Source of the DNA: Thermodesulfovibrionales bacterium
GTDB taxonomy: Bacteria; Nitrospirota; Thermodesulfovibrionia; Thermodesulfovibrionales; Dissulfurispiraceae
Assembly (NCBI GenBank): GCA_030017995.1
Contig: JASEGS010000008.1
Coordinates: 1 to 54,737, forward strand
Reading direction: 5' to 3'
Length of the DNA stretch: 54,737 nucleotides
This document shows, piece after piece, positions 41,247 through 43,287 of the stretch (the stretch's first letter is position 1; each line of letters opens with the position of its first letter). Below the pieces are notes generated by a model. The model ran no database searches. It saw nothing but the letters and a program-made list of their open reading frames with translations, and was not told the origin of the DNA. A program made the position numbers and the translations under genes.

Positions 41247-42176
41247 TCAAATCCCTTCAGGCAAAAACAAGCCTGTGCTAAGATACCTCTCCCCTCTATC
41301 AGGTAAAATAACTACAACCTTCCTGCTATTACCCAATCTCTCTGCAACCTTTAAAGCTGCATACATAGCAGCGCCAGAGGATGCTCCTGCAAGAATCCCT
41401 TCTTTCAATGCAAGTCGTCTTGCGGTCTCTGCTGCATCATCATCCGTTACAGGCATGACCTCATTATATATCTTTGTATTCAGAATGCCCGGGAAAAAGC
41501 CTGCGCCAATGCCGGCTATTTTATGTTTTCCGGGATTCCCACCTGATAAAACTGGCGAACCTGCTGGTTCCACAGCAGTTATCCATACGTCTGCATTCTT
41601 TTCCTTAAGCACCTCTCCAACACCTGTTATTGTGCCTCCTGTCCCTACCCCTGCAACAAAGGCATCAGGCGCACAACCCAAATCATTTATTATCTCAATT
41701 GCTGTTGTCTTTCTGTGAATTTCCGGATTTGCCTTATTTTCAAACTGCTGAGGCATAAAAAAATCCGGATTATCCTTGAATATCTCCTCTGCCTTTTCCA
41801 CAGCCCCCATCATGCCCTTATCTCCAGGGGTTAATATAAGCTCTGCTCCAAAGGCTTGGAGGAGTTGTCTCCTTTCCATGCTCATGGTTTCGGGCATAGT
41901 GAGGATAAGTTTATAGCCCTTAACAGCGGCAACCATTGCAAGCCCTATGCCTGTATTACCGCTTGTAGGCTCAACTATTGTGCCTCCGGGTCTGAGTTTG
42001 CCTTGTTTCTCAGCACTTTCTATCGTGGAAAGGGCTATCCTATCCTTAACAGAACCTCCTGGATTAAACCCTTCGAGCTTTGCCCATATTGCCGCGCTGT
42101 TTCCGGAAACCATGTGACTGATCCTTACGAGCGGAGTATTACCAATGAGACTTAAAACATTTTGATTGAGTTTCAT
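41247..42176 (-). CDS. cysK: Cysteine synthase A
   Basis: PLP enzyme making cysteine from O-acetylserine and sulfide. The 309 residues include IGNTPLVRISHM (about 11-22), the PLP-Lys in PGGSVKDRIAL (about 39-49), EPTSGNTGIGLAMV (about 67-80), GTGGTITGVGEVL (about 176-188) and a C-terminal SSGAAM motif. ATG 42176 follows GGGGAGG. Divergent from mqnD, with the structured element between them. Confidence 0.96.
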   Translation of the reverse strand: MKLNQNVLSLIGNTPLVRISHMVSGNSAAIWAKLEGFNPGGSVKDRIALSTIESAEKQGKLRPGGTIVEPTSGNTGIGLAMVAAVKGYKLILTMPETMSMERRQLLQAFGAELILTPGDKGMMGAVEKAEEIFKDNPDFFMPQQFENKANPEIHRKTTAIEIINDLGCAPDAFVAGVGTGGTITGVGEVLKEKNADVWITAVEPAGSPVLSGGNPGKHKIAGIGAGFFPGILNTKIYNEVMPVTDDDAAETARRLALKEGILAGASSGAAMYAALKVAERLGNSRKVVVILPDRGERYLSTGLFLPEGI

Positions 42177-42220
42177 ATCGCCTCCCCAAATCTTACTTAA
42201 TCCATAGGTAGATATTCTTA

Positions 42221-42386
42221 CATTGATGACGGGTGTGCTGAAAAGCCTTTAATCGCGATACCTTATGCCGAACCCTCCCGCCATTTAAAGGTATTTTCTG
42301 CACCAAATATTCATTAAGCAGAAAAACAGGCTATCTAATAATCTTATCGCATTATTAAAGGCTTTGAGGCATGCCTGTCATCAATG
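42221..42386 (+). other. Structured RNA leader or MITE-like element upstream of mqnD
   Basis: Arms 42221-42253 and 42354-42386 can pair over about 33 positions on plus-strand RNA with only two mismatches. Four of the pairs are G-U, which would be A-C mismatches on the other strand, so the plus strand is the better folder. Inside, ATACCTT (42258-42264) pairs with AAGGTAT (42288-42294) and TTTCTGC (42295-42301) with GCAGAAA (42318-42324), making a three-way junction. Terminal inverted repeats of this size also fit a MITE; there is no clean target duplication. I recognise no known riboswitch. Confidence 0.5.
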
Positions 42387-42424
42387 ATTACAGATATAAA
42401 CTTTATACATTTTTATTTATTATA

Positions 42425-42433
42425 TGCTAAAAT
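42425..42433 (+). promoter_or_regulatory. Extended -10 box before mqnD (leaderless start)
   Basis: TGCTAAAAT lies eight bases before ATG 42442. No ribosome site is visible at either this ATG or the earlier in-frame ATG at 42424, which lies inside the promoter. Confidence 0.4.
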
Positions 42434-42441
42434 TGCAACTT

Positions 42442-43287
42442 ATGATAAGCCTCGGTTTTTCCCCATGCCCAAATGACACTTTTATTTTTTATGCCATTGC
42501 GGAAAAAAGAACAGACACCGCAGGGCTTGATTTTGACATAAGGATTGAAGATGTAGAGACATTGAACCAATTGGCAATGAGCAGAGCATTGGATGTTACG
42601 AAGGTGTCCTGTCATGCATTTTATTACCTGCAGGACGATTATCAATTTTTAAAAACAGGCGGGGCTTTTGGCCGGGGATGCGGACCGCTCATAGTTCAGA
42701 AGACAGAAAACAGAAGTCAGAAGGCGGGAACAACAAAAATAGCGATTCCCGGAGAACTTACAACCGCATTTCTCTTATTAAAACTATATCTGTCCTCAAT
42801 TTCGCAATCCACAATCCGCAATCCGCAATTCATCGCCATGCCTTTTCACAAAATCATGACGGCAGTAAGAGACGGCTCTGTTGATGCAGGGCTGATCATT
42901 CACGAAAGCAGGTTTACATATCATGAATACGGATTGAAACAAATTGCAGACCTCGGTGAATGGTGGGAAAATGAAACAGGACTGCCAATACCCCTCGGCG
43001 GCATCATTGCTAAAAAATCCCTCGGGATGGCAAAAATCAAAACAATTGAAGATATTATAAAAACAAGCGTAAAATATTCCCTGTCTCATCAGAGCGAAGC
43101 AATGAGGTTTATAAAGAGATATTCTGCAGAACTATCAGATGATGTGATAATGAAACATATTTCCCTTTATGTTAATGATTATACTATTAATATCGGAGAT
43201 GAAGGAGAAACCGCACTTGATGAACTTTTAAAGCGGACAGCATATATTAACAAACAGGCAGCGCCGGAGGAATTATGGCGTCATTAA
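42442..43287 (+). CDS. mqnD: 1,4-dihydroxy-6-naphthoate synthase MqnD
   Basis: Converts cyclic de-hypoxanthine futalosine to 1,4-dihydroxy-6-naphthoate in the futalosine menaquinone pathway. It starts MISLGFSPCPNDTFIFYA, with FDIRIEDVETLNQLA, TKVSCHAFYYL (about 53-63), GRGCGPLIV, IAIPGELTTAFLLL and a C-terminal IPLGGIIAKKSLG. I chose ATG 42442 over 42424 because homologues begin there. Heptamer blocks insert QKTENRSQKAG (about 86-96) and SQSTIRNPQF. It ends inside glgP's first codons (13-base overlap). Confidence 0.93.
   Translation: MISLGFSPCPNDTFIFYAIAEKRTDTAGLDFDIRIEDVETLNQLAMSRALDVTKVSCHAFYYLQDDYQFLKTGGAFGRGCGPLIVQKTENRSQKAGTTKIAIPGELTTAFLLLKLYLSSISQSTIRNPQFIAMPFHKIMTAVRDGSVDAGLIIHESRFTYHEYGLKQIADLGEWWENETGLPIPLGGIIAKKSLGMAKIKTIEDIIKTSVKYSLSHQSEAMRFIKRYSAELSDDVIMKHISLYVNDYTINIGDEGETALDELLKRTAYINKQAAPEELWRH
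42697..42727. repeat. Heptamer repeat (CAGAAGA family) inside mqnD
   Basis: Units cagaaga, cagaaaa, cagaagt, cagaagg; in frame as QKTENRSQKA. Confidence 0.8.
42799..42832. repeat. Second heptamer block inside mqnD
   Basis: Units gcaatcc, acaatcc, gcaatcc, gcaattc in tandem, in frame as SQSTIRNPQFI. It differs in sequence from the first block but keeps the 7-base period. Confidence 0.7.

Follow-up and report, generated by a model that had tools for sequence, protein, structure and literature searches.

ERIC, Correia/NEMIS, RUP, RPE and YPAL/RU-2 are bacterial MITEs with stem-loop transcripts, as presented in PMC2229807, which gives target duplications of 3 to 26 bp for YPAL, with targets at or near dyad symmetry. 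The element described here lies between cysK and mqnD in a stretch of Thermodesulfovibrionales DNA of 54,737 nucleotides, called the window below. Its family has in common with the ERIC, NEMIS and YPAL type a length of about 100-200 bp, a non-coding and intergenic nature and a long stem-loop, and, like most of these MITEs, it has terminal inverted repeats and target duplications (PMC2229807). Compared with those elements, the window's family is longer (206-217 bp), has no TA ends and makes 6- or 4-bp duplications; a single core occurs phylum-wide in element families with different ends, with a conserved tandem G-A step and a G-U bias of the plus strand. In its way of working the element resembles MITEs such as ERIC, NEMIS and YPAL (PMC2229807). 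With REPINs, as portrayed in PMC3116915, the family shares hairpin-forming inverted units, intergenic location, compensatory changes and a constant length. It differs from them in having target duplications, in being much longer and in having no consistent Y1 transposase, and it is without one of their defining features. Literature searches on Nitrospirota/Thermodesulfovibrio repeats and MITEs brought up a REP survey but no description of this repeat. We read the window's element as an aged and decayed MITE copy, which would have been moved in trans by a DDE transposase with a 6-bp duplication and whose folded, phylum-wide core would act at the level of the element (probability about 0.82).

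The window copy is about 206 bp long and occupies about 42195-42400 of the plus strand, the ends being extrapolated from intact copies; the profile match runs from 42198 to 42395 (E 2.7e-45). The original prediction had placed the element at 42221-42386, a span that proved too narrow on alignment with intact copies. Both terminal inverted repeats (TIRs) are degenerate. The left one (42195-42210, ACTTAATCCATAGGTA) differs at 5 of 16 positions from CCATAATCCGTAGCCA, and the right one (42385-42400) differs at about 6 of 16 from TGATTACGGATTATGG in the alignment. No target duplication was recognisable at the ends of the window copy when it was aligned with intact copies.

The plus strand of 42200-42410 folded with -68.5 kcal/mol (z -7.61), and none of 200 shuffles was as good. 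Arms of 33 bases with two mismatches and four G-U pairs had been predicted, which is exactly what was found: the 33-nt arms at 42221-42253 and 42354-42386 form 27 Watson-Crick pairs, 4 G-U pairs and 2 mismatches, with a strict complementarity of 82%. The parts of the fold, all on the plus strand, are the P1 arm (42228-42239 with 42368-42379), a tandem G-A/A-G mismatch (42240-42241 opposite 42366-42367) which is a conserved unpaired step in alignment A1, the P2 stem with AAAGNCTTT as both of its strands (42242-42250 and 42357-42365), and P3, formed by GCGAT, followed by the conserved ACCTTA (42255-42265), and ATCGC (42346-42350). The two internal hairpins of the original prediction are both present in the window copy but are not found in all copies. 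Apical hairpin 1 (42258-42294) pairs ATACCTT with AAGGTAT over 7 bp (42258-42264/42288-42294), and apical hairpin 2 (42294-42325) pairs TTTTCTGC with GCAGAAAA over about 8 bp (42294-42301/42318-42325). Since some copies are without the window's two hairpins, the branched interior is copy-specific and the outer stems are family-wide.

A MITE had been one of the two identities originally proposed, together with a search of the genome for further copies. This search gave 41 matches to the element in its own genome (1,696,309 bases, 55 contigs). The element was matched in 9 of the 40 genomes of a first set, and of 31 genomes from its own taxonomic family 10 had matches to the consensus of a young sub-family, the own genome being counted in both. 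Intact copies are 206-217 bp long, about 208 bp in the alignment, with the ends CCATAATCCGTAGCCA and TGATTACGGATTATGG and with the terminal inverted repeat CCATAATCCGTA on both sides. Among 46 non-redundant TIR pairs, spanning 39-365 bp (most often 208 bp), 18 were identical at 5 or 6 of the 6 flanking bases, against 1.41 on average and at most 6 when pairs were permuted (2000 permutations). Loci that overlap (L001-L016, L102-L111) and pairs close to the end of a locus were excluded. A register test gave a sharp maximum of this signal for a length of 6 bp directly outside the termini of the element. Many dispersed copies, terminal repeats and 6-bp target duplications therefore identify the family as a MITE, and the proposal is borne out.

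Direct repeats of 19 bp and 15 bp stand at the ends of L036 and L046, respectively, and a fixed 6-bp stagger explains neither. A retroelement, which these repeats had suggested, was dropped in view of the register test. The target duplications often contain TTGA/TCAA or TGA, and some copies lie directly behind stop codons; no target-orientation rule valid throughout was found among the duplications inspected. Only 2 of 40 copies in the own genome overlapped an ORF of at least 100 aa by more than 40 bp, versus 91% of random positions. By a crude ORF caller, on which these placement counts rest, 44 placements in the own genome were 18 divergent, 13 antisense and 5 sense co-directional, 2 convergent and 6 at edges, and 63 placements in other genomes were 15 divergent, 19 antisense and 10 sense co-directional, 7 convergent and 12 at edges. 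The copies, the terminal repeats, the target duplications, the intergenic placement and the absence of the element from the gap in relatives show that it has been mobile.

Some copies, such as L135 and L139, have the same ends with a different interior. Mini-elements of 39-42 bp, consisting of little beyond the two ends, were seen at L147 (942-980), L148 (893-931), L137 (1025-1066) and L138 (842-883). In the own-genome copy L049 (contig C22, about 2006-2254), a perfect palindrome, ACCCCGTTAGAAAG-AAA-CTTTCTAACGGGGT, is inserted in the apical loop; it is probably another small repeat.

The same core was found inside at least two other end types. The second end type, CCTTACAGTTGCATAAA ... ATGCAACATTAAGG, about 215 bp long, bears the core in G045 and G166. 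Of its 55 oriented pairs, a count in which one element can appear in both orientations, 33 were flanked by a perfect 4-bp duplication, versus a mean of 6.9 and a maximum of 18 in permutations; no pair matched at 5 bp. In G166, ends of this second type enclose an IS1380-family transposase (NF033539, 234 bits, cut-off 180), with TTAA duplicated on either side, so that CCTTACAGTTGCATAAA-type ends and the 4-bp duplication match those of an IS1380-family element. An IS1380-family insertion sequence thus has the same ends as one of the core-bearing types. G045 contains a second IS1380-family gene, bounded by CCCTATTTTGCCGATAG and CCCTAAATTGCCGATAG; the third end type matches the ends of this gene, and CCCTATTTTGCCGATAG recurs without a mismatch at two loci of another genome that bear the core. 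At L112 (G045, about 1151-1306), a window-type copy has a core-bearing element with second-type ends nested within it.

In contrast to the second type, the window's CCATAATCCGTA ends have a 6-bp duplication and no IS1380 partner was found for them. IS1380-family elements duplicate 4-5 bp of their target, a length from which the 6 bp of the window's end type departs. When the window's ends were compared with four IS1380 ends, one comparison exceeded the chance level, with 57 of 20000 random windows doing as well, and three did not. Because this likeness is weak, we infer only that the window's own end type may also be moved by an IS1380-like enzyme. None of the TIR pairs more than 420 bp apart enclosed a transposase. 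They enclose host genes, among them what are presumably a methyltransferase gene and a tRNA at L061 and a YchF-like GTPase and Tat genes at L133, and some of the ends in such long pairs are solo or truncated elements. Among the chosen genomes searched, PF01609 was absent from G000, G002 and G022, and PF13701 from G000, G002, G012, G017 and G022. A 161-aa gene directly behind one end (L119 of G002) was rejected as a mobiliser: it is without a Pfam match, and a tRNA comes next. G002 has 126 matches to the ends, and many of its contigs break off within copies.

The core is the inner ~155 nt, which comprises the arm, the tandem G-A mismatch, the AAAGNCTTT stem, the GCGAY/RTCGC stem and ACCTTA. The P1 arm is variable in sequence, AAAGNCTTT stands on both sides, and the interior is divergent in sequence and nearly constant in length. 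In alignment A1 (27 diverse copies), 94.8% of the stem cells were paired, and the covariation score was 0.331 versus 0.146 for shuffled alignments and 0.078 or less for slid partners. A look for covariation in relatives had been recommended in case the element were an RNA; it is present, with 14 of the 26 core pairs changed on both sides. The MITE therefore carries an RNA-like conserved fold, and the MITE and RNA proposals are not mutually exclusive. A covariance model, with hits counted up to E 1e-5, detected the core in 50 of the 295 phylum genomes, which represent 38 of 135 genera; almost every hit was full-length. Four distant genomes held 9, 18, 38 and 18 copies. At least 97 stretches of named genomes matched the exact core pattern. 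Among the matches listed, titled stretches were mostly Nitrospirae or Thermodesulfovibrionales, with many titled 'uncultured bacterium', one Deferribacteres and one Lachnospiraceae. No exact core match was found in a viral collection. Seven copies of G001 (L306, L312, L315, L320, L324, L328 and L332) have the core in common and strongly different arms, which nevertheless form nearly perfect duplexes of at least 30 bp.

The stem cells of 80 copies contained 1598 Watson-Crick pairs, 156 G-U pairs, 11 A-C and 47 others. The pair-type and strand counts are not independent, the copies being related; with this proviso, plus-strand pair types seen in at least two copies were 12 G-U versus 2 A-C, while those seen once were 9 G-U versus 6 A-C, without bias (80 copies). 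When both strands were treated by the same procedure, and with the same dependence among copies, 75 copies gave 21 A-C mismatches in the plus and 83 in the minus fold, and 38 distant copies gave 8 and 36. Folding energy was equal between the strands, the plus strand being better in 25 of 53 copies (Wilcoxon p 0.93), and in 22 of the 38 distant copies. L049, L082, L135, L139, L149, L150 and L248, which have another core or an insert, were omitted from the interior-hairpin, energy and pair-type alignments, L126 and L222 also from the strand-energy and pair-type counts, and L031 from the strand-energy stem count. Because inherited changes are biased towards G-U and once-seen changes are not, these counts suggest that selection acts on the folding of the plus strand in spreading lineages and weakens once a copy has inserted, so that it is not maintained at each site.

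Tentatively, the core may be a plus-strand module of ~155 nt, Nitrospirota-wide, carried in MITE shells with differing ends and duplications, whose RNA or single-stranded DNA would be needed for spread; it would then be a 'passenger fold' selected by the element. We regard this as possible, though doubtful. The arm complementarity might instead come from template-switch correction of palindromes during replication, with copies drifting and no selection on a folded strand, as the near-perfect pairing of the greatly differing G001 arms and the equal minimum free energy of the two strands would allow. Such a process has no strand preference, however, and does not fit the inherited 12 G-U versus 2 A-C types, the excess of A-C mismatches in minus folds or the maintenance of the G-A/A-G step as a mismatch, so that we consider it unlikely.

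A family of host small RNAs, or a site-specific cis-regulator, would account for the RNA-like covariation and for the phylum-wide conservation of the ACCTTA and GCRAY motifs. Yet the copies lie beside many different genes and relatives have the gap without the element. No shared promoter or U-run was seen among copies, an Rfam covariance-model search of 41900-42700 gave no match up to E 1, and once-seen mutations do not favour G-U, as would be expected of individual copies free from constraint. This explanation is improbable to us.

Still less probable is a REPIN-like single-stranded DNA element mobilised by a tyrosine (Y1/RAYT) transposase recognising the folded strand. The strand-specific hairpin, the near-constant length and the compensatory arm changes resemble those of REPINs as given in PMC3116915, and the own genome has 5 matches to Y1 transposases. 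However, the 6- and 4-bp target duplications fit DDE transposition, and none of the Y1 genes of the own genome that were compared by position had an element next to it. Among the chosen genomes searched, the copy-rich G002, G022 and G166 had no PF01797 (Y1) match, and a Y1 gene was present in 11 of 14 element-bearing genomes versus 8 of 14 others.

At the cysK-mqnD site, the start codon of mqnD is the ATG at 42442, and an extended -10 (TGCTAAAAT, 42425-42433, plus strand) is located immediately upstream of it and outside the element. The gene mqnD was present in 29 of 31 family genomes, and cysK adjoins it in 15 of the 24 mqnD loci fetched. A full profile match in the gap was found only in the own genome among these 24 loci; in L255 there is a fragment (E 3e-5), and L258 holds a divergent relative (E 0.0085) carrying the same core. 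The extended -10 is conserved in L251-L253, L255, L258 and L261 and is kept where the element is missing, which places the element upstream of an older mqnD promoter, into which region it was inserted, and outside the leader, as had been suspected from the position of the -10. The conserved extended -10 directly before the start codon also suggests, from the sequence, that the mqnD transcript may be leaderless or nearly so. An alternative ORF start at 42424 would fall within this -10. The start of cysK is 18 bp from the left end of the element, therefore the cysK transcript must begin in or beyond the element, of which it would read the minus strand. A leader element of mqnD or cysK, riboswitch or attenuator, is scarcely credible even though the element fills the divergent gap and ends only 18 bp from cysK, since the mqnD -10 lies downstream of it and is conserved in relatives without it, and a cysK transcript would carry the minus-strand sequence. 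In L253 (G044) and L251 (G045) the gap contains other, unrelated-looking inverted repeats; because relatives carry these there, the gap may be a tolerant insertion site.

Returning to the decayed MITE copy, we propose that a non-coding element of 206-217 bp would be mobilised in trans by a DDE transposase, with duplication of 6 bp of target, and that the plus strand of its core would be kept foldable in the lineages that spread. The fold would most likely act at the level of the element and not as a host function at the cysK-mqnD site; as an RNA hairpin, it would make insertions tolerable or help mobilisation. It is usually the ends that define a small bacterial MITE, the inside being dispensable, whereas here the inside is conserved and the ends vary, across a phylum. 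The family offers a large natural data set for testing the role of a folded strand in the MITE life cycle, and it is a repeat family whose copies, if not recognised, would pass for riboswitch-like leaders of the genes beside them.
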